Assembly: GCA_016207905.1 (NCBI GenBank)
Contig: JACQZC010000050.1
Coordinates: 1 to 35,308, forward strand
Direction of reading: 5' to 3'
Source of the DNA: Nitrospirota bacterium
GTDB lineage: Bacteria > Nitrospirota > Thermodesulfovibrionia > Thermodesulfovibrionales > JdFR-86
DNA: 35,308 nucleotides
Shown here: positions 268-35,181 of the stretch, piece after piece
Position numbering within the stretch: position 1 is the stretch's first letter
Layout of the letters: each line of letters starts with the position of its first letter
Notes under the pieces: generated by a model
Databases searched by the model: none
The model's input: the letters and a program-made list of their open reading frames with translations, nothing else
What the model was told of the DNA's origin: nothing
Program-made: the position numbers and the translations under genes

Positions 268-1290
268 TTGAAGGTAGCTAAACTCTATAGTTTTGACGAC
301 ATACGTATTGAAGACATGCCTGTGCCAGATATTGGTCCAAAGGATGCCCTTCTTAAGACAAAGGCATCGGGCATATGCTCAGGGGATGTGATGAAGTGGT
401 ATATCGAAAAAAAGTCCCCTCTAATTTTAGGGCATGAGCCTTCAGGCGAGATAGTGGAAGTTGGAAAAGAGGTTAGCTCCTTTAAGGTCGGGGACAGGGT
501 CTTTGTGCATCATCATGCACCGTGCTTTACATGCAGGCTCTGTAGAAGGGGGGATTATGTGCACTGCGATACATGGCGGAACTCTAACATAATTCCCGGT
601 GGCATCTCAGAGTATATCCTCATCCCTCATATTAATTTAGAAAACGACACCCTGAGCCTGCCTAATAACCTGAGCTATGAAGACGGAGTCCTGATTGAGC
701 CACTTGCCTGTATAGTCAAGGGCTTAAGAAGGGCAAGGCTCAGGCATGGAGACACCGTGGCAGTCATAGGTCTTGGGTTTATGGGAATACTTAATGGAAT
801 CACTGCAAAAAGATATGGCGGAGGAAAGGTTATAGGAGCTGATACTGTACCATATAGGCTCAATAAGGCAATGGAGCTTGGTTTTGACTATGTTATCGAT
901 GTCTCAAAATCAGCACTTAAAGACAGGTTGAAAGATATTACATCAGAAGAGATGGCACATCTTGTAATTGTTGGGCCAAATACTGTGGAGGAATTAAAGG
1001 AGGGCATATCGTGTTCGGCTAAAGGAGGCAGTGTGCTCATGTTTACCCCTGTTAAGCCTGATGAGACCCTGACCTTAAAACCAAATGAGCTTTATTTTAA
1101 TGACATCTCTATTATAACAAGCTATTCGTGTGGACCAAATGACACGGCAGATAGCCTTGAGCTTATAGCCTCGGGCATTGTAAGGGCAGAAAGACTAATT
1201 ACACACAGATTCCCCATACAAGATGTAAAGAAGGCATATAGACTTACCGAAGAGGCAAGGGAGTCGCTTAAATGCATTATAGTCTTTTGA
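268..1290 (+). CDS. Zinc-dependent medium-chain alcohol/polyol dehydrogenase
   Basis: A 340-residue medium-chain dehydrogenase that oxidises an alcohol or polyol with NAD(P). The substrate cannot be read from sequence. The GroES-like N-terminal half has the catalytic zinc ligands C37 and the GHE motif (H56-E57), and the four-cysteine structural zinc lobe C86, C89, C92, C100. The Rossmann half carries GLGFMG at about residue 167. The start is TTG, chosen because a GCTGAGG-like ribosome site lies at 254-260 and homology begins at once; an ATG at 261 runs out of frame to a stop. It resembles threonine/sorbitol dehydrogenase-type enzymes. It lies 22 bases ahead of the cupin gene, so the two are probably co-transcribed. 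Confidence 0.85.
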   Translation: MKVAKLYSFDDIRIEDMPVPDIGPKDALLKTKASGICSGDVMKWYIEKKSPLILGHEPSGEIVEVGKEVSSFKVGDRVFVHHHAPCFTCRLCRRGDYVHCDTWRNSNIIPGGISEYILIPHINLENDTLSLPNNLSYEDGVLIEPLACIVKGLRRARLRHGDTVAVIGLGFMGILNGITAKRYGGGKVIGADTVPYRLNKAMELGFDYVIDVSKSALKDRLKDITSEEMAHLVIVGPNTVEELKEGISCSAKGGSVLMFTPVKPDETLTLKPNELYFNDISIITSYSCGPNDTADSLELIASGIVRAERLITHRFPIQDVKKAYRLTEEARESLKCIIVF

Positions 1291-1312
1291 TAGGTTATAA
1301 TATAAACCCTCT

Positions 1313-1768
1313 ATGCCTAAAACATTGACATGCGATTGGAAGACATCAAAAGGTAAAGGAAATCCCTCTTTAAAAACAAGGCTGATTAAGCATAGATGCA
1401 ATTACACATGGAAAGGGATTAAGATTGAAAGATATAAATCCGATGATAGCACATGGTTTAATGCCTCAAGAAGGGTGCTTACAGGCACCTATGGTGAAAA
1501 GACGAGGTTTCATGTGAGATACTTTCAGATAGCACCACAGGGTTATACGACCTTAGAAAGGCACAGGCATGAGCATGTTGTGGTTGGTATAAGGGGAAGG
1601 GGACTGTGCAGGGTTAATGGTAAATCCTATAGAATCGGTTTTTTAGATACCCTTTATATAGAGCCTCACGCAGGGCATCAGCTTAAAAACCCTTATAACG
1701 AGCCATTTGGATTTTTCTGTCTTGTGGATGCAAAAAGGGACAAGCCAAAGGTTTTAAAGGGCAGATGA
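1313..1768 (+). CDS. Cupin-domain protein
   Basis: A 151-residue protein with a single cupin barrel in its C-terminal two thirds. Motif 1 is seen as H84-R-H86-E-H88 followed by GIRGRG. Motif 2 has H119 and H122 (EPHAGHQLKN). Together these give a plausible mononuclear metal site. The first 50 residues are basic and have no recognised domain. The function is unknown; small cupins of this type are often isomerases, dioxygenases or sugar-binding regulatory proteins. The stop codon is followed directly, with no spacer, by the ATG of the K+ channel gene, which suggests translational coupling. No clear Shine-Dalgarno site is visible before the ATG. Confidence 0.75.
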   Translation: MPKTLTCDWKTSKGKGNPSLKTRLIKHRCNYTWKGIKIERYKSDDSTWFNASRRVLTGTYGEKTRFHVRYFQIAPQGYTTLERHRHEHVVVGIRGRGLCRVNGKSYRIGFLDTLYIEPHAGHQLKNPYNEPFGFFCLVDAKRDKPKVLKGR

Positions 1769-2785
1769 ATGGCTGAAGAGATAAGCACAATATCTGCATT
1801 CAAGAAGAAATTCCTACTTTCGTTTTCCCTTTTCATCCTTACCCTCACAGTCGGCACAATAGGATACTGGCTTATTGCAGTGGAGGAGTACCCTCTTATA
1901 GATTACATCTACATGACTGTCATAACCGTTGCAACAGTAGGCTATAGAGAGGTCATCGATGTTACAACGAGCACCTCTGGAAAGCTGTTCACTATTTTCC
2001 TCATATTTGCAGGGATGTCCGTAATACTTTATTTTTTGTCCAATGCAACTGCCTTTTTAATAGAAGGCGACATAAAAGAAATATTCTGGAGGAAGAAGAT
2101 GCAAAAGCTTATCGGTAAGATGAAGGACCATTATATCGTTTGTGGCATAGGCAGGCTTGGCTTGCATGTAGTGGAGGAGCTTCACCAGACAGGCAGGCAA
2201 GCAGTGGTAATCGATAATAACCCTGCACGGGTCGAGGAGTTTAAAGAAAGGTTCTCCAATATCGGAGTGGTTATTGCAGATGCAACGGACAGTGAGGTAT
2301 TGGAGAAGGCAGGCATTGCTTACGCAGGAGGGCTTATCGTTACAACCGGCTCTGATAAAGACAATCTCGTGATAACCCTTTCTGCAAGACAGTCATGCCC
2401 TAACCTAAGAATCGTGACCAGATGCAATGACATTAAAAACACCGAGAGGCTTAAGAAAGCAGGTGCAGACTCTGTTGTCTCTTCCAATCTCATAGGAGGC
2501 TTGAGAATGGCATCCGAGATGATTCGTCCTACTGTGGTGACATTCCTTGACCAGATGCTAAGGGACAGGGATAAGAACCTGAGGGTCGAGGAGATAAGAC
2601 TGACTGCTGGCTCTCCCCTCATAGGAAGACAGATTGGAGGGATTAAAAGGCAAGCCCTTATCCTTGCCCTTCTTGGAAAAGACGGCTCTTATGCGTATAA
2701 CCCTTCTGATGAGATTCTGCTCGAGGAAGGGATGGCATTGATATTCATGGGAAGTCCCGAGGACAGGAAAAAGTTGGAAGGTTAA
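1769..2785 (+). CDS. RCK-domain potassium channel (TrkA-N/TrkA-C)
   Basis: A 338-residue inner-membrane ion channel subunit, predicted to assemble as a tetramer. Two membrane helices (about 14-37 and 72-95) flank a pore loop with the selectivity-filter segment T56-V-G-Y59. The filter continues as R-E rather than the more usual G-D/E. A cytosolic RCK_N Rossmann domain starts near 120 (HYIVCGIGRLG), followed by a TrkA_C domain from about 255. The MthK/Kch-like architecture supports regulated K+ flux gated by a ligand or nucleotide bound to RCK. It is the last gene of the first + strand operon and converges on the hldE-like gene, 9 bases away. Confidence 0.87.
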   Translation: MAEEISTISAFKKKFLLSFSLFILTLTVGTIGYWLIAVEEYPLIDYIYMTVITVATVGYREVIDVTTSTSGKLFTIFLIFAGMSVILYFLSNATAFLIEGDIKEIFWRKKMQKLIGKMKDHYIVCGIGRLGLHVVEELHQTGRQAVVIDNNPARVEEFKERFSNIGVVIADATDSEVLEKAGIAYAGGLIVTTGSDKDNLVITLSARQSCPNLRIVTRCNDIKNTERLKKAGADSVVSSNLIGGLRMASEMIRPTVVTFLDQMLRDRDKNLRVEEIRLTAGSPLIGRQIGGIKRQALILALLGKDGSYAYNPSDEILLEEGMALIFMGSPEDRKKLEG

Positions 2786-2794
2786 GTCCAGCCT

Positions 2795-4096
2795 TTAGTC
2801 GTTTTGGGTATAAACCACATCGGGTCTTATCGCCTGAATTAAATTGTCAGGGGTATCTTCTTTAAATATACATATGTAATCGACATATTCGAGGGCAGAT
2901 AATACTTCAGCCCTGTCTTTCTCGTTGTTAATAGGCATTTCGGGTCCTTTAAGCCTCTTAATCGATGCATCGGAGTTCATGCCTACGATGAGAACATCTC
3001 CAAGTTTTTCCGCCTCCTTTAAATGAGCAATATGTCCTTTATGAATAATGTCAAAAAATCCGTTTGTAAAGACTATCTTTTTGTTTTTAAGCCTCAGGTC
3101 ATTTACAATCTTTGAAATTCTCTTGACATCAACTACCTTGTTGCTATCTCTATCATGGGAAAATATAAGTTCCTCGTACTCTAGGGTGGCAGTGCCCATC
3201 TTGCTGACTACGATTCCAGCCGCCTTATTTGCAAGCAGTGCAGATGCCTCCAGGTCAAGCCCGCACCCAATTGCTACAGAAAGTGTTGCCACAACCGTGT
3301 CTCCAGCACCTGAGATGTCGAATACCTCTTTTGCCTCTGTGGGAAAATGGCTGACGCCATGGTGCGAAACCAAAGACATGCCTTTTTCCGAACGGGTAAC
3401 AAGCAGATGCCTAACTCCATATTCGTTCAAAACCTCCATGCCGTATTTTTCAATCTCGGAATCCACATTTGCAATCTCTTTGCCCGCTATATAGCTTAGC
3501 TCTTTTACATTTGGCTTGACGACCGTAGCCCCCCTGTATTTGTCCCAATCTTTACCTTTTGGGTCAACTATTATATATACATTATTGTCATTTGCCGATT
3601 TAATAATATACCGACATATATCAGGACTACAGACGCCTTTGTCATAGTCCGAGATAATAATTGCATTAACTTTATCAACCATTTTTTTTGCATTTGCCAT
3701 TATTTCGGATGTATATCGATGGTTGATTTTGCCTATCTCCTCAAAATCGAGCCTAACAATCTGTTGATGCTCACCAATCACCCTGACCTTTGTTATCGTG
3801 GGCATTTCCGTTTCCACCAGAATAGATTTGACTCCTGCTTCATCGAGCAACTCCGAAAGGATAGCCCTATTGTTATCCCTGCCTACAAATCCAGTTAAAA
3901 CAGCATTCCCTTGAAGGTGGGCAATGTTATGCGCTACATTTCCGGCACCTCCGAGTGCGAAATGAGATTTTTCGACCTTTACCACAGGCACAGGCGCCTC
4001 AGGCGAAATCCTTCGGACTTTACCGAAATGATATTTATCCAGCATTATATCGCCTATGACAAGTACTGTTGCTTTAGTAAAATCTGGATGTTTCAT
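2795..4096 (-). CDS. hldE: HldE-like bifunctional heptose kinase/adenylyltransferase, C-terminally truncated
   Basis: Family role: phosphorylation of D-glycero-D-manno-heptose 7-phosphate and later adenylylation, making ADP-heptose for the LPS core. Residues 1-320 form a PfkB/ribokinase domain, with GGAGNVA at 49-55 and the catalytic GAGD at 263-266. Residues 338-433 form a cytidylyltransferase-like domain with TNGFFDIIHKGH, where H352-K-G-H355 is the HxGH motif. E. coli HldE has 477 residues. Here the protein ends at RPDVVYTQND, exactly where LVKGGDY and the later STT-type motif would follow, so about 45 residues are missing. The kinase half looks intact and the transferase half is doubtful. 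It is the last gene of a minus-strand operon behind the SDR gene (16-base gap). Confidence 0.82.
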   Translation of the reverse strand: MKHPDFTKATVLVIGDIMLDKYHFGKVRRISPEAPVPVVKVEKSHFALGGAGNVAHNIAHLQGNAVLTGFVGRDNNRAILSELLDEAGVKSILVETEMPTITKVRVIGEHQQIVRLDFEEIGKINHRYTSEIMANAKKMVDKVNAIIISDYDKGVCSPDICRYIIKSANDNNVYIIVDPKGKDWDKYRGATVVKPNVKELSYIAGKEIANVDSEIEKYGMEVLNEYGVRHLLVTRSEKGMSLVSHHGVSHFPTEAKEVFDISGAGDTVVATLSVAIGCGLDLEASALLANKAAGIVVSKMGTATLEYEELIFSHDRDSNKVVDVKRISKIVNDLRLKNKKIVFTNGFFDIIHKGHIAHLKEAEKLGDVLIVGMNSDASIKRLKGPEMPINNEKDRAEVLSALEYVDYICIFKEDTPDNLIQAIRPDVVYTQND

Positions 4097-4112
4097 ATAG
4101 CTTTATATGTTA

Positions 4113-4802
4113 TCAATATATTTTCCTGAATATATCTATCTCGCTTATTCGCATGCTTGAGTAGTCTCGGGACATCTCGAAGATGAATCGAGCGGCCTCT
4201 TCAGTTCGTATAAACTTCTCCGTGTCTCCTCTTTCAGCCGTCATATCAGTAGACATTGCCCCCGAATATATATTTATTATTGGCACATTGTATTTTAAAG
4301 CCTCGAACTGAAATGACCCCATGAAGCCTCTTAATCCATGTTTACTGGCACAATATGCGGATTCAAGCTGACCAAAGCTCTTGCCTGCAACCGAATTAAT
4401 ATTAATTATTAATCCCGAAGATTTTTTCTTGAATATTTCGAATATGCCTTTAGTCAACAAAATTGGAGAAAGCAGATTCACATTCAGCAGGTTTTTTAAT
4501 TCGTAAGGGCTCGTTTCGTCAACTGGTTTTTGAAAATATACTCCTGCATTGTTAATCAATATATCTATATCCGCCTTCTCTGCGCAGTTAGTTAGATTTA
4601 TTATGGTTTGCTCCTCGGTAATGTCTCCAATTACGACATAGCAGTCAACCTTGCTCTTTAATACCTCTTGTCTTACGCTATTTAATCTTCCCTCATCCCT
4701 GCCATGTAAAATTATATTATACCCGTTAGATGAAAAAACTAACGCTAAACTCTTACCCAGACCTCTGCTTGCACCAGTTATCAGTGCCGTTTTCCTTCTC
4801 AT
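4113..4802 (-). CDS. Short-chain dehydrogenase/reductase (SDR)
   Basis: A 229-residue classical SDR, a cytosolic NAD(P)-dependent oxidoreductase. It shows the cofactor motif TGASRGLG (residues 9-16), the NNAG motif near 88, the catalytic serine in NSVAGKS, and the YxxxK pair in YCASK. The C-terminal substrate loop is short. The substrate is unknown. Its place between a zinc dehydrogenase and an HldE-like protein suggests modification of an envelope sugar or lipid precursor; this is inference from context only. The start is an ATG 9 bases after the stop of the upstream dehydrogenase gene. Confidence 0.83.
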   Translation of the reverse strand: MRRKTALITGASRGLGKSLALVFSSNGYNIILHGRDEGRLNSVRQEVLKSKVDCYVVIGDITEEQTIINLTNCAEKADIDILINNAGVYFQKPVDETSPYELKNLLNVNLLSPILLTKGIFEIFKKKSSGLIININSVAGKSFGQLESAYCASKHGLRGFMGSFQFEALKYNVPIINIYSGAMSTDMTAERGDTEKFIRTEEAARFIFEMSRDYSSMRISEIDIFRKIY

Positions 4803-4811
4803 ATCTCTATA

Positions 4812-5861
4812 TTACTCGCTCATCTCGATGATGCATCGTCCTGTTTGCCCGGACCTCATTTTATCTAAAGCCAGGTTAATCTCATCGAGCGAAAACCTGT
4901 GGGTAATAAGACCTGTTAAATCGAGCTTTCCAGAGGAGTAAAGCCTGAGATACCGCGGGATATCCTCATCGGGGTTAGTTAAACCTCCCAGACTTGCAAA
5001 CATTTTTTTCCCACCATAGTGTTTGCTGAATGAATCGATTCTCAGGCTCTGGTCATATCGTGGCTGACCAACCAGAATTGTTTTCCCGGATGGCGATGTC
5101 AGAGCATATGCGAATGAGATATTGTCCACATTGCCTGTGCACTCGACAAAAACATCGACACCATGTCTGCCTGCTATTTTAAGTATTTCATTCCTGACAT
5201 CGGTATTTTGAGCGTTGACTATATGTGTCGCACCGTGCATGGACGCCATCTGCAATTTAATGTCTAATCTATCGATGGCTATAATTGGATATGCCGATGT
5301 CATCTTAGCCCCCTGAACTACATTTAATCCAACCCCGCCGCATCCAAAAACAGCTATCGATTGGCCAATCTTTAATTCAGCCTCGTTGTCTATAAGTCCC
5401 AATGCAGTCGTTACGGCACAGCCCATCAGTGCGGCAATCTCAAAGGGAATATCTTTCGGTATCGGCGTGATGCGGTTTTCCGATACTACCGCATATTCGT
5501 TGAAGGTTGTAACCAGACCGCCTCCAACGGAAGAGTCTCCTCTCTTATATCTGGGGAATGACGATTCTATTCCGCTTCCCTTGCGCCAGTGCATGACTAC
5601 ATGGTCGCCCTTCCGTATGGATGTAACCCCAGGTCCGGTTTCAACCACCACACCGCCTCCTTCATGACCCATCAGATGAGGCAGATATTTATCCTCGCCG
5701 AACCAGCCGTCTATCTCTCCAATTTGTTTTCCACATATTCCACTACAAATGACTTTCACCAGAACCTGTCCGACATCCAATTTTGGTATAATCAGCTGGT
5801 CGATGACTAATGGCGAATTCAATTTTTCAAGAAAAGCTGATTTCATTAGAAACTCGCTCAT
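4812..5861 (-). CDS. Zinc-type alcohol dehydrogenase lacking the structural-zinc cysteines
   Basis: A 349-residue medium-chain dehydrogenase. It has the catalytic-zinc region CSGICGK and GHE, and a Rossmann GCGGVG motif near residue 180. Most homologues have a four-cysteine structural zinc lobe after the GHE region; here that lobe is replaced by HWRKGSGIESSFPRYKRGDSS with no cysteine. A good ribosome site (AAGGAGAG) lies 3-4 bases before the ATG, supporting this start, although a second ATG lies six codons in. It is the first gene of the minus-strand operon with the SDR and hldE-like genes. The substrate is unknown; a role in nucleotide-sugar or lipid chemistry is a guess from its neighbours. 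Confidence 0.82.
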   Translation of the reverse strand: MSEFLMKSAFLEKLNSPLVIDQLIIPKLDVGQVLVKVICSGICGKQIGEIDGWFGEDKYLPHLMGHEGGGVVVETGPGVTSIRKGDHVVMHWRKGSGIESSFPRYKRGDSSVGGGLVTTFNEYAVVSENRITPIPKDIPFEIAALMGCAVTTALGLIDNEAELKIGQSIAVFGCGGVGLNVVQGAKMTSAYPIIAIDRLDIKLQMASMHGATHIVNAQNTDVRNEILKIAGRHGVDVFVECTGNVDNISFAYALTSPSGKTILVGQPRYDQSLRIDSFSKHYGGKKMFASLGGLTNPDEDIPRYLRLYSSGKLDLTGLITHRFSLDEINLALDKMRSGQTGRCIIEMSE

Positions 5862-5989
5862 AAACTCTCCTTCCTTATTGAGGACATCGTATTATAATGT
5901 AATACTTGAGAGGATTTTTTCAACACCTGCCACTTCCATACAAAGTATATTGACAACCGACCTCACCAGTGATACGATTCCGATTAATA
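5862..5989. other. Divergent intergenic region without a gene
   Basis: Between the minus-strand dehydrogenase and the molybdopterin-protein remnant. A TATAAT-like -10 hexamer (reverse complement of 5891-5896) faces the dehydrogenase and lies in the imperfect inverted repeat GTATTA..TAATAC at 5889-5905. I could not find a well-spaced -35. No RNA gene is seen. Confidence 0.35.
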
Positions 5990-6175
5990 TCTACTATTTC
6001 GACAAGGTTGAGGGGGCATAAGCCATCAAAGAACACTGTTTTCGATATTATATTTCCGAGGGTGCTTGCAGGGGAGAGGATAGGAAGGAAAGAGCTGGCA
6101 GAACTCGGACACGGGGGCTTGTGTCTTCACTGCTCCGAATGCAGGTATCCTGTCTGCTCTTTTGGAAAATATTAG
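5990..6175 (+). pseudogene. C-terminal fragment of a molybdopterin-binding (MoeA/MogA-like) protein
   Basis: The readable segment KPSKNTVFDIIFPRVLAGERIG then GHGGLCLHCSECRYPVCSFGKY matches, from memory, the cysteine-rich C-terminus of stand-alone molybdopterin-binding proteins often found next to moaA. No matching N-terminal domain lies upstream in any frame: 5862-5990 is the promoter region of the divergent dehydrogenase. A GTG at 5969 opens the frame but gives a non-homologous lead-in. The stop at 6173-6175 is six bases before moaA. The best reading is a remnant left by deletion of the rest of the gene. A short functional cysteine-rich protein is possible but less likely. Confidence 0.55.
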
Positions 6176-6181
6176 GGATAA

Positions 6182-7165
6182 ATGGGCGAGTCCGTCACAG
6201 ATTCATTTAACCGAAGGATAGACTACCTCCGCATATCCGTTACGGACAGGTGCAACCTCAAATGCGTGTATTGCATTCCAGAAGGTCCAATCCGCTACTT
6301 TGACGCCAAGGAGATGCTCACATCCGAGGAGATAGTCAGGTTCGTCAGGACTGCGCACAGGCATGGGGTCTCGAAGGTGCGGATAACCGGGGGCGAGCCG
6401 CTACTCAGGACCGACATACTGGAGATTGTTGAATCCATAAAGGGGATTGGCATCAAGGATTTGGCTATAACTACAAACGGCATCGAGCTTAAGAAAATGG
6501 CCGGAGCGATTAAAAAGGCCGGACTCGACCGCGTGAATATCAGCCTCGACACCCTGAAAGAGGACAGGTACAGGCTCATGACAAGGGGCGGCGAAATCTG
6601 CCGTGTCTGGGAGGCAATAGAAACTGCGGAGAGGGCTGGGATTTCGCCTATAAAAATCAATGTCGTGCCCATCCGCGGGATAAACGACGACGAAGCTGCC
6701 GATTTCGCCATGCTCACCATGGAGAAGGACTGGCATATAAGGTTCATCGAGCTGATGCCTGTCGGCCAGCGCGGCAGGTGGAGCAACGATGCCTGCGTAA
6801 AGAAGGACGAACTTATCAAGAAGATATCCGCTACCGGCAGGCTGAGCCTCCGGAAATTCAGGGGCAAGGGACCTTCAAGGAACTACCGTCTCGAAGGCGC
6901 AAGGGGAATCATCGGTTTTATTAGCCCCATAAGCGAGTGCTTCTGCGAGTGGTGCAACAGGCTTCGGCTGACTGCCCACGGCAGGATAAGGCCGTGTCTG
7001 TTTTCGGATACTGAAGTTGACATTATGACCCCAATGCGAAATGGGGCATCCGAGAAGGAGTTGGACGAGCTTTTCCTGCGTGCCGTATGCGTAAAGCCCG
7101 CCGGACACCGACTGAGGGAGAACGATTTCTCCGTCCTTCCCTCCATGTCGCAGATAGGCGGTTAA
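6182..7165 (+). CDS. moaA: GTP 3',8-cyclase MoaA (molybdenum cofactor biosynthesis)
   Basis: A 327-residue radical-SAM enzyme that converts GTP to 3',8-cyclo-GTP, the first step of molybdopterin synthesis. The N-terminal SAM cluster is C24-x3-C28-x2-C31 (CNLKCVYC), followed by GGEPLLR. The C-terminal substrate cluster uses C255, C258 and C272 in FCEWCNRLRL...RPCLF. The conserved C-terminal Gly-Gly (326-327) needed for catalysis is present. Length is normal. A GGGAT site precedes the ATG. The gene is visibly GC-richer than its neighbours. With fdhD and the FmdE-like gene elsewhere in the window it points to molybdenum or tungsten enzymes in this cell. Confidence 0.95.
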   Translation: MGESVTDSFNRRIDYLRISVTDRCNLKCVYCIPEGPIRYFDAKEMLTSEEIVRFVRTAHRHGVSKVRITGGEPLLRTDILEIVESIKGIGIKDLAITTNGIELKKMAGAIKKAGLDRVNISLDTLKEDRYRLMTRGGEICRVWEAIETAERAGISPIKINVVPIRGINDDEAADFAMLTMEKDWHIRFIELMPVGQRGRWSNDACVKKDELIKKISATGRLSLRKFRGKGPSRNYRLEGARGIIGFISPISECFCEWCNRLRLTAHGRIRPCLFSDTEVDIMTPMRNGASEKELDELFLRAVCVKPAGHRLRENDFSVLPSMSQIGG

Positions 7166-18939: not shown

Positions 18940-19589
18940 GTATGGAGCAATGCATTCTAAAAGATGTCATGCTGAATTTATTTCAGCATCTCTTTCGGCT
19001 TCAGAATGACAGAAAGGGTCTTTCAATCATTACAGTAATCCTAAGCCTTCTAATCCTTTCCCTTTTTGGTGCAGTAGCTGTTTCCCTGATAACAACCTCA
19101 GCCAATATAGGGCTTCAGGAGGAGCAGGGACAACAGGCATTCTATATAGCAGAAGGGGGATTGGAATATGCCCTTATGAATGGCACATACTGTAACTATA
19201 ATACCTCAAGCATCACATTTGGAGAAGGGAGCTTTTTTACAAACTCGGTCTTTACAAATGCGGTTCTTAGCGGATACATAAACAACTCTACAGGCACACT
19301 CTATCTTACTTCAGCTCCGCAGAGGGGGTTTATCAACTCAGGCTTTACAGTGCCAGGCACGATAGCGATAGACTTAGAATACCTCTTTTGCAAAGGCAGT
19401 ATCAGCGGTATCAACAATAGCTTCACAGTGTGTGAGCGTGGCTATGCAGGCTCGGCCCGCTCTGAGCACAACAACGGTGCGGCAGTCACTCAATGCTCTG
19501 TTCGCTCAACTGGAACTGTCTCCAAGGGACTGGGTTTTGGAAGTGTAAAGAGGGTTGCACAAATAAATGTTGTGGAGGTGGATGAGTGA
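18936..19589 (+). CDS. PilX/GspK-like minor pilin with REP-encoded N-terminal extension
   Basis: 217 residues. The pilin-like helix is RKG|LSIITVILSLLILSLFGAVAVSLI, lacking Glu at mature position 5, as is usual for PilX/GspK. The helix is followed by FYIAEGGLEYA, common in PilX proteins. The 28 residues before it are unusual for a prepilin leader. Residues 10-26 (DVMLNLFQHLFRLQNDR) are the translation of a REP-like palindrome at 18965-19012. The insertion is in frame, so the gene may still work if PilD accepts a long leader. It ends in a four-base overlap with the next gene. Confidence 0.75.
   Translation: MSMEQCILKDVMLNLFQHLFRLQNDRKGLSIITVILSLLILSLFGAVAVSLITTSANIGLQEEQGQQAFYIAEGGLEYALMNGTYCNYNTSSITFGEGSFFTNSVFTNAVLSGYINNSTGTLYLTSAPQRGFINSGFTVPGTIAIDLEYLFCKGSISGINNSFTVCERGYAGSARSEHNNGAAVTQCSVRSTGTVSKGLGFGSVKRVAQINVVEVDE
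18965..19012. repeat. REP-like palindromic element inside the PilX-like gene
   Basis: The ends TGTCATGCTGAA and TTCAGAATGACAG are near inverted repeats, and an inner hairpin TGCTGAA/TTCAGCA is present. 26 bases (18966-18991) are identical to 21959-21984. Confidence 0.8.
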
Positions 19590-20728
19590 TAACCGCCCCG
19601 GCATTCCGCGCCATGCGTTTGTGGACATGGCTGTTGGTGTTTGGTATTGTGGCTGTATGCCTGCTTTCCCACACGGACACAGCCTATGCATATGACGAAA
19701 CCCAATGCGCCGGAGATAGATTCGGCGAGGATTTGAACTGCACTGCTCAGGATGTTTCTATCACCAACATACGGGTCATTGGCGATACCACATCCTGCAT
19801 AGGTGGCAGTAGCATCACGCTTGACCTGGAGGTCACGGTTAACTTCGCCACACCTGACCGATGGGACATCGGCGTTTTCGTCTCTAACGACGGCAAAACC
19901 CCGCAGTTGACCGTTGCAAATGGCGGGGCTACCAGTTGTGCTGTGGCTATCCTGCCAGCCTCCAGTCCATTCCTGGACTTAGACGGAGTTCCGAAAGGGA
20001 CAACCGACACCTGCGGTGACGGTAACAAGGGAATCGGTGGGGGCACAGGCAATGGCATCCTTTACATGCCCAACTCCACTGTGCAGTGCCAAGCTATCAG
20101 CGGAAGCAGTGGTAATCTCTTCATTCCCTATGTTGTAAGCTGGGACAATCAGGCAAGCCCAGCAGGTAGTCTCTGCACATCCATTGCCGACCCTGTGCCC
20201 AATACAAAGTCCAAATGCAACGCACCTACCGTAGATCAGGGCACAGTTAGTGTCGTAGTTCTGCCCACTATCACCAAGACAGACAGCATCACCTTCATCA
20301 AGTCAGGCAACACCACCACTTATACTGTCGTCATCACCAATACAACGAAAGTTGCGTTAAGTGGCGCAGTCTTCAAAGACCCAGCAGTAAGCGGTATCAA
20401 TGTCAATAGCGTAACCTGCTCGGCAGGAGAAGGGGCGTCCTGCCCAGCCAGCCCCACAGTGGCAGATATGCAGGGTGCAGGCATTACTATTCCTTCCATG
20501 CCGGTTGACAGTAGCGTAACCTTCACAATCAATGCCACCTTAAGCGGCAATCCCGGAGATACTCGCACTAACACAGCCAGCGTCACCGTCAGTAGCCAGA
20601 CTAACTCAGCCAGTGATACCGACACCATTACTGGAGAGATTGCAATAAGCCCTTCGAGTTCTTCCAAATATGGCTCTCAGGGAACATTAATGGTATTTAA
20701 TTATGCCCTTTGGAACTTTGGTTTCTAA
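19586..20728 (+). CDS. DUF11-type surface protein, 5' part (frameshifted)
   Basis: A 380-residue frame. The GTG at 19586 overlaps the previous stop, but the ATG at 19613 gives a clean signal peptide (MRLWTWLLVFGIVAVCLL...AYA), so that is the likely start. Residues 50-200 form a cysteine-containing beta domain. Residues about 225-345 form a DUF11-like repeat (TYTVVITNTTKVALSGAVFKD...). The frame then enters another repeat and hits a stop at 20726, while the frame from 20710 continues the protein. It is probably a secreted or pilus-associated adhesin encoded with the minor pilins. The 5' kilobase looks GC-richer than the pilin genes around it. Confidence 0.65.
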   Translation: MITAPAFRAMRLWTWLLVFGIVAVCLLSHTDTAYAYDETQCAGDRFGEDLNCTAQDVSITNIRVIGDTTSCIGGSSITLDLEVTVNFATPDRWDIGVFVSNDGKTPQLTVANGGATSCAVAILPASSPFLDLDGVPKGTTDTCGDGNKGIGGGTGNGILYMPNSTVQCQAISGSSGNLFIPYVVSWDNQASPAGSLCTSIADPVPNTKSKCNAPTVDQGTVSVVVLPTITKTDSITFIKSGNTTTYTVVITNTTKVALSGAVFKDPAVSGINVNSVTCSAGEGASCPASPTVADMQGAGITIPSMPVDSSVTFTINATLSGNPGDTRTNTASVTVSSQTNSASDTDTITGEIAISPSSSSKYGSQGTLMVFNYALWNFGF

Positions 20729-21906
20729 CAGTGCCTGCAGACAGTTCAGAGAATTTTATAGTAAAGGTGCAAATCCCTGCTGACGCAGCTATAGGGACAG
20801 TTGATACAACAACCATTACTGCGGTATCAGGCAATGACCCAAGCAACAAAGCAACTGCAACTGCTGTCAGTACTGTGAGCGAGCCATTAACCTTAACGCC
20901 TGATAACACAGGCTCAGGTGGAAAAGGCTCTTCGGCATTTTATAACCACAGGGTGCAGAATAATACAGCCTCAAGCCAGACAGTTAGTTTTTCAACTGAA
21001 TTTTTAGACCCATGCACAGGCTGGACTAAAGTCACTCCTGAAACAGTGACACTTTCACCTTTTGGAGGATATGAAGATATTGTGGTCAAGGTAACAATAC
21101 CCTCCACTGCCGTGGCTGGAGATGTATGTAGAGTAACTGTGACTGCCACGGCAGGAGGAAATTCAGCACTTGCAACTGACACCACAACAGTAAAAGACAT
21201 TGTCCTTTATTCAGACCCCGACTACACAAATGAAAGCTACATATTCCCTGTAGGGAATGCTGTTTATGCAAGGGCATTTGGCACTCTGAGCACAACTTAT
21301 AGATTCTACTGGTATGATTCAAGCAATAATTTAAAAAGAACCTCGCCGCTCTACACAGGCCCGGAAATATTATCTGACACTTATGACCCAATTGCAGGGC
21401 CCCTCGGAACATGGCGCGTGGAGGTAAGGCGTGTCAGCGACAATGCTCTTTTTGCCCAGGCTTATTTTTATGTTGGACCTGACCATGTAAATGCAAGCTA
21501 TACAGGGCCAAATCCGCGTGTGAATACCAATGTAACTATTAACCTCACCTTACATGACAAGGATAATCATGTTGTGCCCATAGACCCAGCTACCGGAAAT
21601 GTTGTTCAAGGAAACCCGCCAACAACAAAAGACCCATTAAAAATAACTGTATCCGTAAACGGCTCTGCAACAATTGTATCTACTACCTTGAGCGGAGCTG
21701 TAATTGTCGGACAGACAGTTACCGGAAACCTCGACAGTGTAACAGGAACCGCCACAATAACAATCACTGATAGCGTCACGGAAATAGTGACTATTACTCC
21801 GGCTTCCTATAATTCGGCATTATACGGCTCACCATCGAGGGATGAACCAACAACAGTCTCCTTTAAAAAAATAAAGATAGTTGACTGGCGTGAGATTCTT
21901 CCCTGA
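20710..21906 (+). CDS. DUF11-type surface protein, 3' part (frameshifted)
   Basis: A 398-residue frame that continues the previous gene in another phase; its nominal TTG start has no ribosome site. It begins TVPADSSENFIVKVQIP, the end of a repeat unit, then a full unit (TPDNTGSGGKGSSAFYNHRVQNN...GGYEDIVVKVTIP), then beta-rich domains with TYRFYWYDSSNN and an Ig-like end. Comparing the two units, about 30 residues seem missing at the junction, so this is a deletion plus frameshift rather than a simple one-base slip. It is either a broken gene or an assembly error at repeats. Confidence 0.6.
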   Translation: MELWFLTVPADSSENFIVKVQIPADAAIGTVDTTTITAVSGNDPSNKATATAVSTVSEPLTLTPDNTGSGGKGSSAFYNHRVQNNTASSQTVSFSTEFLDPCTGWTKVTPETVTLSPFGGYEDIVVKVTIPSTAVAGDVCRVTVTATAGGNSALATDTTTVKDIVLYSDPDYTNESYIFPVGNAVYARAFGTLSTTYRFYWYDSSNNLKRTSPLYTGPEILSDTYDPIAGPLGTWRVEVRRVSDNALFAQAYFYVGPDHVNASYTGPNPRVNTNVTINLTLHDKDNHVVPIDPATGNVVQGNPPTTKDPLKITVSVNGSATIVSTTLSGAVIVGQTVTGNLDSVTGTATITITDSVTEIVTITPASYNSALYGSPSRDEPTTVSFKKIKIVDWREILP

Positions 21907-24435: not shown

Positions 24436-24783
24436 ATGGCTGTAAAATTAGGGCAGTTACTTCTGAACTCCAATATTATCACTCAGGAACAGCTTAACCA
24501 GGCACTTAACATTCAGAAAAAAGATGGTGGAAGGCTCGGCACAAACCTCGTCAAATTAGGCTATGTCACAGAGGAAAAACTCGTAACATTCCTGAGCAAG
24601 CAGTTTGGTGTGCCTGCAATAAACCTCTCTAACTATAAGATAGACCCAGCAGTGCTCAAGCTCATCCCAGCTTATGAGTGCCATTACAGAGTATTATGGA
24701 GGCAAAGGTGCGGTTGCCACTACCACAAAGGCATCTCCTACCGAATCATCACGGATACTCGAGGCAAAGGATTATACTTTTGA
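24436..24783 (+). CDS. pilB: PilB-like assembly ATPase, copy 1, N-terminal fragment
   Basis: The first 76 residues (to VLKLIP) are the start of the T2SSE_N domain of PilB, the hexameric ATPase that powers pilus extension. After 24663 the frame leaves homology (AYECHYRVLW...) and stops at 24783. The expected second half of the N-domain (about 65 residues) is missing, and homology resumes in another frame at MSAITEYYGG (24674). So a deletion plus frameshift separates this piece from the ATPase core. 141 bases (24523-24663) are identical to the second copy. Confidence 0.75.
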   Translation: MAVKLGQLLLNSNIITQEQLNQALNIQKKDGGRLGTNLVKLGYVTEEKLVTFLSKQFGVPAINLSNYKIDPAVLKLIPAYECHYRVLWRQRCGCHYHKGISYRIITDTRGKGLYF

Positions 24784-26092
24784 TGGTGAGGAGGAGACTT
24801 TAGGCGCTGTCTCAGAGCAAAGCAATCTGCTCGATGTCGAAGAGTTTGATAAGGTAGTTGGTAGTGCCCTCGATGGCATAGAGGCGGTTGAGGAAAAGGA
24901 AGATGAAGATGTAATAAAAGAGGTAGATGCACCAATAGTGAAGCTCGTAAACGGGATATTTGTCAATGCCATAAAAGCAAGTGCAAACGATATACACATA
25001 GAGCCCTACGAGACATCGGTCAGGGTGAGATACAGGGTTGATGGCAAGCTTTACTCTGTGATGAACCTTCCTGCAAAGATAAAGAATGCCATAGCTGCGA
25101 GGGTAAAGGTCATGTCAGAGCTTGATATTGCCGAAAGGAGGCTTCCACAGGACGGAAGGATAAAGCTTAAGTTAGGTAAAAAAAGGGAGATAGACTTCAG
25201 GGTCTCGACTGTTCCTACGATGTTTGGCGAAAGATGCGTTCTCAGGCTTCTCGATAAGTCAAAGCTTCAGGTGGACTTTTCAAAATTAGGCTTAGATGAA
25301 GAGGCATTGAAGATATTTATGGATGCACTCGATAAGCCTTATGGAATGATACTCGTTACAGGGCCAACTGGATGTGGAAAGACTACAACGCTTTATTCGG
25401 CACTCTCTTATCTGAATAAAATTGGCGTGAATATCTCGACTGCCGAAGACCCTGTAGAGTATAACTTCTTAGGTATAAATCAGGTTCAGGTGAGGGATGA
25501 GATAGGGCTTACATTTGCCTCTGCATTAAGGTCATTTCTCAGGCAGGACCCTGATATAATCATGGTCGGTGAGATAAGGGATTATGAGACTGCCGATATA
25601 TCGGTCAAGGCAGCACTTACAGGGCACCTCGTTTTAAGTACACTTCATACAAACGATGCCCCTGGTACCATAAGCAGGCTTGTTAATATGGGCATAGAGC
25701 CATTCCTCGTTGCCTCGGCAGTTATAGTTATTGCAACCCAGAGACTTATAAGAAAAATATGCCCTGAATGCAAAGAGGAGGTAAAGGTCCCTGTGCCTGC
25801 CCTCATAAAAGTCGGATTTTCAGAGGAAGAGGCAGGCAGTATAAAATGCTACAGGGGTAAGGGATGTCCTGCGTGCAATAACTCAGGCTATAGGGGAAGG
25901 ATTGCCATCTTTGAAGTCATGCCTATAAAGGATGATATAAGAGACCTCATACTTGAAGGTGCCACTTCGGCAGAGCTTAAGAAGACCGCCATAAAGCTCG
26001 GCATGAAAACCCTGAGGAAGAGTGGTCTTGTAAAGGTCAAGGAAGGCATAACCACTATAGAAGAGGTCATCAGGGTCTCTTTTGAGGACTGA
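24674..26092 (+). CDS. pilB: PilB-like assembly ATPase, copy 1, ATPase core
   Basis: A 472-residue frame beginning AITEYYGG, the end of the N-domain. The ATPase core is complete: VNGIFVNAIKASANDIHIEPYE, Walker A GPTGCGKTT (cysteine in place of the usual serine), the Asp box AEDPVEY, Walker B DPDIIMVGEIRD and the His box HLVLSTLHTNDA. A four-cysteine zinc motif (CPEC...CPAC) follows. Its own ATG has no ribosome site, so translation depends on the upstream frame or is lost. If the frameshift is an assembly error, this is the working pilB. Confidence 0.8.
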   Translation: MSAITEYYGGKGAVATTTKASPTESSRILEAKDYTFDGEEETLGAVSEQSNLLDVEEFDKVVGSALDGIEAVEEKEDEDVIKEVDAPIVKLVNGIFVNAIKASANDIHIEPYETSVRVRYRVDGKLYSVMNLPAKIKNAIAARVKVMSELDIAERRLPQDGRIKLKLGKKREIDFRVSTVPTMFGERCVLRLLDKSKLQVDFSKLGLDEEALKIFMDALDKPYGMILVTGPTGCGKTTTLYSALSYLNKIGVNISTAEDPVEYNFLGINQVQVRDEIGLTFASALRSFLRQDPDIIMVGEIRDYETADISVKAALTGHLVLSTLHTNDAPGTISRLVNMGIEPFLVASAVIVIATQRLIRKICPECKEEVKVPVPALIKVGFSEEEAGSIKCYRGKGCPACNNSGYRGRIAIFEVMPIKDDIRDLILEGATSAELKKTAIKLGMKTLRKSGLVKVKEGITTIEEVIRVSFED

Positions 26093-26143: not shown

Positions 26144-27577
26144 ATGGTTATAAAACTTGGACAGATGCTCATAAACTCCGGCATTATTACCGAGGAACAG
26201 CTCAAACAGACACTTGTTCTTCAAAAAAGGGATGGTGGAAGGCTCGGCACAAACCTCGTCAAATTAGGCTATGTCACAGAGGAAAAACTCGTAACATTCC
26301 TGAGCAAGCAGTTTGGTGTGCCTGCAATAAACCTCTCTAACTATAAGATAGACCCAGCAGTGCTCAAGCTCGAGACATCAAAAATCCTTCAGGTAAAAGA
26401 CTATACGATGTCTGCCGAGGATATGGTGGCAGGTGGCACCATGGGTGAGAGTGATGAGGGCCCCACAGTCGATGTCGATGAATTTGACCAAGTGGTTGGC
26501 AGTGCCCTCGATGACATAGAGGCTGTTTTAACAAAGGACGAAGGTGTATCAAGCCAGGTAGATGCACCAATAATTAAGCTTGTCAACGGCATATTCGTTA
26601 ATGCCCTTAAGGCAGGTGCAAGCGATATACATATAGAGCCTTATGAAGGGGTTTTAAGGATAAGATACAGGGTTGATGGTGTTTTGCATACGGTTATGAA
26701 TCTGCCTACAAAGATAAAGAGTCCCCTTACTGCGAGGGTAAAGATAATGTCCCGTCTTGACATCGCTGAAAGAAGACTTCCACAGGATGGAAGGATAAAG
26801 CTCAAATTAGGACCTAAAAGGGAGATTGACTTCAGGGTCTCTGTCTTACCATGCCTTTTCGGTGAAAAGACCGTCTTAAGGCTTCTTGACAAGTCAAGCC
26901 TTCAGGTAGACCTTACGAAGTTAGGCTTTGAGGAGAAAGCCCTCAGTGAGTTTCTGGCGGTGCTGAGTAAGCCATACGGAATGGTACTCGTTACAGGTCC
27001 AACTGGAAGTGGTAAGACCACAACCCTTTATTCGGCACTTAGCCATCTCAACAATCCTGATGTGAACATAATGACTGCCGAAGACCCTATAGAGTATAAC
27101 TTTTTAGGTATAAATCAGGTTCAGATGAAGGAGGAGATAGGGCTTTCGTTTGCCTCTGCATTACTCCTTAATATGGGCATAGAGCCTTTCCTTGTATCCT
27201 CATCTGTCTTAATGATAATTGCACAGAGACTTGCAAGAAAGCTCTGTCAGCAGTGTAAGGAAGAAGAAAAAGTGCCAATTCCTGCTCTTATGAAGATTGG
27301 TTTTTCAGAAGACGAGGCAAATGTGGTAAGATGCTTCAAAGGCAAAGGCTGTCCTACCTGCAGTAATTCGGGGTACAAGGGAAGGATCGCACTTTATGAG
27401 GTGATGCCCATAGGCGATGAGATTAAGGAGCTGGTGCTCGAGGGTGCCTCTGCCGCTGAGATCAAGAAAGCCGCAATAAAGCTTGGGATGAAGACCCTGA
27501 GAATGTCAGGGCTTACAAAAGTAAAAGAAGGTGTAACCTCGATAGAAGAGGTTGTGAGGGTGACCTTTGGAGATTAA
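26144..27577 (+). CDS. PilB-like ATPase, copy 2, lacking Walker B and His box
   Basis: A 477-residue in-frame paralogue of copy 1. The N-domain is cut after KIDPAVLKL and jumps to ETSKILQVKDYT, so its second half is missing too. Walker A GPTGSGKTT and the Asp box AEDPIEY are present. FASAL is then followed directly by LLNMGIEPF: the 50 residues equal to copy 1 bases 25529-25678 are absent, and with them the Walker B motif and the HTND box. It cannot be a normal ATPase as written. The C-terminal zinc motif and tail are intact. It may be a degraded duplicate, a regulatory subunit, or a product of assembly collapse. Confidence 0.75.
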   Translation: MVIKLGQMLINSGIITEEQLKQTLVLQKRDGGRLGTNLVKLGYVTEEKLVTFLSKQFGVPAINLSNYKIDPAVLKLETSKILQVKDYTMSAEDMVAGGTMGESDEGPTVDVDEFDQVVGSALDDIEAVLTKDEGVSSQVDAPIIKLVNGIFVNALKAGASDIHIEPYEGVLRIRYRVDGVLHTVMNLPTKIKSPLTARVKIMSRLDIAERRLPQDGRIKLKLGPKREIDFRVSVLPCLFGEKTVLRLLDKSSLQVDLTKLGFEEKALSEFLAVLSKPYGMVLVTGPTGSGKTTTLYSALSHLNNPDVNIMTAEDPIEYNFLGINQVQMKEEIGLSFASALLLNMGIEPFLVSSSVLMIIAQRLARKLCQQCKEEEKVPIPALMKIGFSEDEANVVRCFKGKGCPTCSNSGYKGRIALYEVMPIGDEIKELVLEGASAAEIKKAAIKLGMKTLRMSGLTKVKEGVTSIEEVVRVTFGD

Positions 27578-34715: not shown

Positions 34716-34788
34716 GCCACCGTAGCTCAGCAGGCAGAGCAGCTGATTTGTAATCAGCGGGTCGGGGGTTCGATTCCCTTCGGTGGCT
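34716..34788 (+). tRNA. tRNA-Thr (TGT)
   Basis: Acceptor GCCACCG pairs with CGGTGGC. The anticodon stem GCTGA/TCAGC encloses loop TTTGTAA, so the anticodon is TGT (reads ACA). Discriminator base is T and CCA is not encoded. First of four tRNAs before tuf, matching thrU in E. coli. Confidence 0.97.
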
Positions 34789-34878
34789 TCTATTCGGGAT
34801 AAATGTCAAGTTGAGGAGGGTTTTAAAATAGTAGAAAACTATGAGGTTAATATCGGTATTGTCTCTTTTTGTGTGGAA

Positions 34879-34960
34879 GGAGAGGTTCCCGAGTGGCTAA
34901 AGGGGACGGGCTGTAAACCCGTTGGCTATGCCTACGGAGGTTCAAATCCTCCCCTCTCCA
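34879..34960 (+). tRNA. tRNA-Tyr (GTA)
   Basis: Acceptor GGAGAGG pairs with CCTCTCC. Anticodon stem ACGGG/CCCGT encloses CTGTAAA, giving anticodon GTA. A long variable arm marks a bacterial class II tyrosine tRNA. The T arm GGAGG/CCTCC is intact. CCA is not encoded. Confidence 0.97.
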
Positions 34961-34984
34961 CTTTGGGATTTGAAATTTTATGGT

Positions 34985-35056
34985 GCGGGAGTAGCTCAGT
35001 GGTAGAGCGTCAGCCTTCCAAGCTGAGGGTCGCGGGTTCGAATCCCGTTTCCCGCT
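34985..35056 (+). tRNA. tRNA-Gly (TCC)
   Basis: Acceptor GCGGGAG pairs with TTCCCGC (one G-T wobble). Anticodon stem TCAGC/GCTGA encloses CTTCCAA, giving TCC (reads GGA). Matches glyT in position. Confidence 0.97.
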
Positions 35057-35073
35057 TCGAAATTATCAGTGCT

Positions 35074-35146
35074 GCCCATGTAGCTCAGTTGGCAGAGCAC
35101 ATCCTTGGTAAGGATGAGGTCACCGGTTCAATCCCGGTCATGGGCT
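35074..35146 (+). tRNA. tRNA-Thr (GGT)
   Basis: Acceptor GCCCATG pairs with CATGGGC. Anticodon stem CATCC/GGATG encloses TTGGTAA, giving GGT (reads ACC/ACT). Matches thrT in position, 35 bases before the tuf ATG. Confidence 0.97.
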
Positions 35147-35181
35147 TAGGAACAGAATTATTATTTAAGGAGGAATAGGTT

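Follow-up and report, generated by a model that had tools for sequence, protein, structure and literature searches.

A truncated HldE-like protein that probably works as a heptose kinase beside a stand-alone HldC in a Nitrospirota bacterium

The window, which is the whole 35,308-nucleotide stretch of Nitrospirota DNA analysed here, carries on its minus strand a gene for an HldE-like protein in which an intact heptose-7-phosphate kinase domain is followed by a truncated adenylyltransferase domain. Judging from sequence comparisons, this protein is probably an HldE of a non-native lineage, by now reduced to a single function and working beside a stand-alone HldC. HldE is an enzyme used in the construction of the bacterial outer surface. 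The truncated HldE would act as the heptose-7-phosphate kinase, the 7-phosphate would be removed by GmhB, and AMP would be transferred from ATP by the HldC encoded elsewhere in the genome. Selection on the second half of HldE may have been relaxed because its hosts already had HldC, and the same loss, with different damage, would have taken place in a relative, G038. The case is one of tidy domain erosion rather than a new system. The gene and its parts are as follows.

2795–4096, minus strand: HldE-like protein, 433 aa, consisting of an intact heptose-7-phosphate kinase domain and a truncated adenylyltransferase domain
3164–4084, minus strand: kinase half, approximately residues 5–311, PfkB / rfaE_dom_I, GAGD motif present (TIGR02198, phmmer)
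2798–3121, minus strand: shortened adenylyltransferase half, residues 326–433, with TNG, HKGH, NSD, KG and EDTP and without KGG and STT
2795–2797, minus strand: TAA stop of the HldE-like gene, with TQND at the KGGD position of the family

The open reading frame at 2795–4096 (minus strand) has the C-terminus ...DNLIQAIRPDVVYTQND (RPDVVYTQND before the stop), and the coverage of TIGR02199 (rfaE_dom_II), limited to model positions 2–100 of 144, agrees with this boundary, at which the first-pass annotation had also ended the cytidylyltransferase (adenylyltransferase) domain; the HxGH motif, described there as kept, is present as HKGH. The protein scores above the cut-off of the kinase model TIGR02198 (375.7 against 345 bits) and below those of TIGR02199 (140.7 against 181.5 bits) and of the whole-protein HldE model NF008454 (486.4 against 521 bits), although the last shortfall is not decisive because the HldE of genome G198, in which the motifs are complete, also misses this cut-off (496.3 bits), and that of G370 just reaches 521. 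Pfam assigns PfkB to residues 10–304 and CTP_transf_like to residues 344–430 (profile positions 2–86 of 133), and in phmmer residues 6–311, the kinase half, match the solved heptose 7-phosphate kinase 4e84.

The loss of a tail that includes an STT-type motif, as proposed in the first-pass annotation, is borne out, but needs a correction: where LVKGGDY and about 35 more residues had been given as missing and the stop placed just before the last catalytic motif, approximately 44 residues (44 model positions) are absent, and with KGG(D) and STT two motifs are gone. The protein has 433 aa against 477 aa for E. coli HldE, and its KGG position is occupied by TQN, followed by D and the stop. A tail profile built from stand-alone HldCs gave nothing significant in the six frames of the window (best E 2.5), and beyond the stop, the frame yields only sequence antisense to the K+ channel gene. 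A local frameshift or hidden tail was rejected because the six frames are without tail signal and the tail has no room ahead of the K+ channel gene. A search of the protein's own genome (G000) with HldC as query (E up to 10) returned three places, namely HldC, the HldE-like gene of the window and a weak match (E 0.04) aligned with HldC residues 18–84, outside the tail, so that no tail besides HldC's own was found there; the genome search suggested earlier for hldC and for the missing C-terminus thus located a stand-alone HldC and no detached C-terminus.

The motif names used here follow PMC7993394, which places KGG and the STT segment in the active site of B. pseudomallei HldC on the basis of docking and structure comparison. 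Without KGG, the motif that binds the sugar phosphate, and without the C-terminal part that bears STT, the second half of HldE is most likely inactive. Conservation was scored against 35 reference adenylyltransferase domains (33 HldC and 2 HldE), a conserved column being one shared by at least 90% of them. Ahead of the cut, 30 of 37 such columns are retained in the window protein and 22 of 37 in the G038 copy; beyond it, the numbers are 1 of 16 and 4 of 16, respectively. Among the 26 columns ahead of the cut that are invariant, the window protein keeps 24 and G038 keeps 16. This good conservation ahead of the stop suggests that the loss may be recent or that a residual role may persist. The structure prediction recommended for the shortened domain gave a confident model of the 108-residue remnant (pLDDT 93.5), obtained with an alignment of 34 viral-contig relatives trimmed to the same span (34 of 80 viral-contig loci were taken), with B. 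pseudomallei HldC 5xf2 as its best PDB match (TM 0.81, query length). The model shows that the shared part is able to adopt the fold, which is not evidence of function. A single-sequence fold of the whole protein was uninformative (pLDDT 35.1).

The view that ADP-heptose synthesis would then need another adenylyltransferase is supported by a complete stand-alone HldC predicted in the same genome (contig C28, 38466–38930), which has 155 aa, contains KGGDW and STT and scores above the TIGR02199 cut-off (185.8 against 181.5 bits). This HldC and the HldE-like gene itself are the two matches to the HldE-like protein in that genome (E up to 0.001); at the same threshold, no separate HldA-type kinase was found in the assembly, which is 98.08% complete and comprises 98 contigs. 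The truncated HldE would therefore be the only heptose kinase in its own genome, since no native HldA is present, at least in the assembly, and we infer that it has replaced HldA here. The truncated gene most likely encodes a heptose-7-phosphate kinase, with HldC completing the pathway. The GmhA-like and GmhB-like matches of this genome lie below their cut-offs (196.2 against 209.45 bits and 115.5 against 149.6 bits, respectively), as they do in all four genomes tested, and they are only suggestive, weak evidence because such a loose match also occurs in 9 of 14 control genomes for GmhA and in 5 of 14 for GmhB. No clear HldD was found in this genome (best match 139.3 against a cut-off of 274.6 bits) by a search that was positive in 14 of 14 controls. 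The heptose pathway can probably still run in the host with the truncated gene.

In a comparison of this genome with 40 relatives, a separate kinase match was present in 39 of the 41 genomes (absent in G000 and G005, with longer open frames in G004, 703 aa, and G002, 426 aa) and an HldC-type match in 40 (absent in G024); by these match counts, the HldA + HldC split pathway is the usual one in this order. Matches to the window protein at E up to 1e-82 were found in 4 of 395 phylum genomes, themselves a sample of a larger group, namely G000, G038, G198 and G370, and the HldEs of G198 and G370 have complete motifs and adjoin a gmhA-like gene (annotation by reading). In an order-level search of 176 genomes, only G000 and G038 matched. 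Close relatives that end equally early and have a functional enzyme would have refuted the first-pass annotation; no such case emerged, but a single close relative was found, the G038 protein (59% identity), which is also the closest. A contig search for further relatives returned one distant Saprospiraceae kinase only, and every one of the 61 plasmid records with a match had an identity of <60%. The G038 gene (L003:1417–2799, minus strand) still encodes most of its decayed second domain, in which TNG is changed to TYG, HxGH to QKWH and NSD to VSD; KGG and STT are lost, the gene stopping in the alignment at the expected start of STT, and the TIGR02199 score is 83.4 bits. A kinase and an HldC encoded by genes of their own are present in G038 as well.

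The two proteins are identical at 201 of 307 positions in the kinase halves (65.5%) and at 49 of 103 in the adenylyltransferase halves (47.6%); over the same part, the stand-alone HldCs of G000 and G038 share 71 of 101 residues (70.3%). The second half of the window protein has a higher identity to the reference domains (median 55.4%) than to its G038 counterpart. In the kinase tree, one split with 100/100 support separates the window/G038 pair and three HldEs (E. coli, G198 and G370) from 23 native HldAs, and the window kinase thus falls outside the native HldAs of the order; however, because the tree is midpoint-rooted, the three HldE branches are long and the HldAs come only from this order, the pair could be a third lineage. 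Seven loci (L013, L014, L015, L025, L027, L030 and L032) were left out of this tree by a motif filter. Of 38 HldC-type places listed outside G000 and G038, 31 were fetched. The adenylyltransferase tree has end branches of >5 for G038 and 1.97 for the window domain against a median of 0.44, and these long-branched domains receive no clear placement in it. The rates and the kinase tree fit an HldE of non-native lineage whose second half would have been under relaxed selection in HldC-bearing hosts. At the GCFD site, both proteins carry F in place of the C found in the 35 references. This shared change is a faint hint that decay may have begun before the window and G038 copies split, and a weak one because E. 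coli HldE and B. pseudomallei HldC carry V at this site.

The HldE-like gene belongs to a block of three genes, and the features around it are as follows.

4113–4802, minus strand: short-chain dehydrogenase (SDR), second gene of the ADH-SDR-HldE block, 58% identity to G038
4812–5861, minus strand: zinc-type alcohol dehydrogenase (ADH), which opens the block and is 77% identical to its G038 counterpart
1769–2785, plus strand: convergent K+ channel / TrkA-N gene, almost complete in the Pfam match (TrkA_C 1–66 of 71)
2786–2794: 9-bp gap that separates the stop of the HldE-like gene from that of the convergent K+ channel gene
6023–6169, plus strand: 3′ stump, approximately 49 codons, of a longer protein whose body is absent in the window

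The order ADH-SDR-HldE is common to the window and G038 (77, 58 and 59% identity, respectively) in a comparison that covered 13 stretches from relatives. In G038, where the HldE copy does not adjoin a K+ channel gene, the block sits in an apparent surface-sugar cluster with a GT9-like gene directly after HldE (annotation by reading), for which the window's genome gave a single weak match (E 4.7e-5). Just upstream of the G038 ADH, L035:12101–13372 (minus strand) encodes a single chain of 423 aa that matches E1 alpha of pyruvate dehydrogenase together with the initial part of E1 beta, a predicted TPP-type enzyme beside surface-sugar genes. The G001 ortholog of the K+ channel gene (68% identity, two residues longer at the end) does not adjoin the block and is followed by a phosphoesterase-like gene (annotation by reading) and no hldE block; G001 has no HldE match at 1e-82. 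At the other end of the block, the full-length counterpart of the stump is a 402-aa protein located directly upstream of moaA in G038 (71–73% over 48–49 residues), and no other close copy of the stump protein was found in the window's genome. Insertion of the block as the cause of the stump is weakened, since G001, without an HldE match, also has a mere 22-residue remnant upstream of moaA (59%, E 5e-4), and the loss of the stump protein may thus predate the block. The window's moaA (6182–7165, plus strand) has a GC3 of 0.68 against 0.39–0.50 in 18 other genes measured. Base composition gives no clear sign that the block is foreign: the G+C of HldE and ADH is within the range of other genes, and that of SDR (0.384) is the lowest of 19 genes measured.

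Three further features of the window were observed. The second of two adjacent PilB/GspE-like ATPases (26144–27577, plus strand) is, by eye, without approximately 50 residues that its neighbour (24674–26092) has, including RQDPDIIMVGEIRD...LSTLHTND, which we take to be the Walker B/His-box region; it may represent a degenerate paralog or a collapsed assembly. At 19586–21906 (plus strand), two overlapping open reading frames (380 and 398 aa) apparently encode one secreted protein and differ in frame where joined, a possible frameshift. The translation of an open reading frame at 34783–35178 (plus strand) has a pattern often seen when tRNA genes are translated as if they were coding, and this region is presumably a tRNA cluster.

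The stop of the HldE-like gene is close to the convergent K+ channel gene, as stated in the first-pass annotation, the two being separated by 9 bp, and a rearrangement had been proposed there as what cut the 3′ end. At the left end of the block, such an event appears plausible because the K+ channel ortholog of G001 has a different downstream neighbour, and the narrow gap and the wholly absent tail agree with it; it is not demonstrated, since the eight direct and six inverted repeat families found in 1200–6300 include none that overlaps 2786–2797 and G038 is also without KGG and STT. It is quite conceivable, if somewhat less than probable, that HldE was fully bifunctional, with an active second domain, until a recent event at the K+ channel gene, a deletion or a rearrangement, cut it and was the sole cause of the loss. 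This account concerns history and is compatible with the preferred explanation of present function. It is favoured by the 24 of 26 invariant columns kept ahead of the stop and by a pre-stop part nearer to the reference domains than to G038's, and opposed by the absence of KGG and STT from G038 in another setting, by the lack of overlapping repeats at the junction and, weakly, by the F for C common to both proteins. Because G038 lacks these motifs without a K+ channel neighbour, the loss of the second activity may be a property of a small lineage, to which the cut would be secondary.

The strong conservation up to the stop and the confident model with 5xf2 as best match would also suit a truncated half that is still useful, either in binding or oligomerisation or through a complex of the enzyme with HldC, which would provide what has been lost; this appears quite unlikely, as the G038 copy has lost several motif residues yet retains the domain, and a recent cut would account for the conservation too. 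An assembly artefact, in which the K+ channel gene and the block are chimerically joined and the real gene continues, is more improbable still: the genome is in 98 contigs, and flanks and block are not neighbours in the G001 and G038 stretches examined, but a loose tail occurs on no contig of the genome (HldC query, E up to 10), and the G+C of HldE and ADH is unremarkable, although SDR is the lowest. It is also unlikely, if a little less so than these two, that the ADH-SDR-HldE block forms a cassette of its own, retaining an HldE whose second half is dead as the kinase dedicated to a modified heptose or another surface sugar. In that case, the sugar would be produced with the two dehydrogenases and separately from ordinary ADP-heptose, and in this genome the HldE of the block would have replaced HldA as well.

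The preferred reading, an HldE reduced to its kinase step and working beside HldC, can be set against known systems. With HldE (RfaE), the window protein shares the domain order, a kinase half above cut-off, second-half positions 2–100 of 144 and the same side of the kinase tree, whereas it is without KGG, the C-terminal part and STT, and its genome has a separate HldC. As in the HldA + HldC split pathway, one protein is predicted for the kinase step and a separate HldC for the adenylyl step, but the window kinase lies outside the native HldAs of the order and is extended by approximately 110 residues left over from the truncated second domain. The shortened-domain model resembles B. pseudomallei HldC (5x9q/5xf2; 47% identity over 103 columns), from which the domain differs in being without the last part, which bears the KGG lysine and the FEHDRSTT segment (PMC7993394). 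HldE domains can work apart: domain 1 of H. pylori HldE alone (residues 1–325) yielded active product when used in a reconstituted mixture (PMC10269868), and Neisseria meningitidis and Ralstonia eutropha have HldA + HldC instead of HldE (PMC10221265). The titles and abstract starts of the open-access literature searched describe no case in which HldC makes up for a cut adenylyltransferase half of an HldE. If the preferred reading is true, the two genomes, with their different damage, would provide a clean natural case of a fused enzyme losing an activity where a stand-alone enzyme covers the step; the annotation "bifunctional HldE" would be wrong here, and the adenylyl step would belong to a gene elsewhere in the genome.
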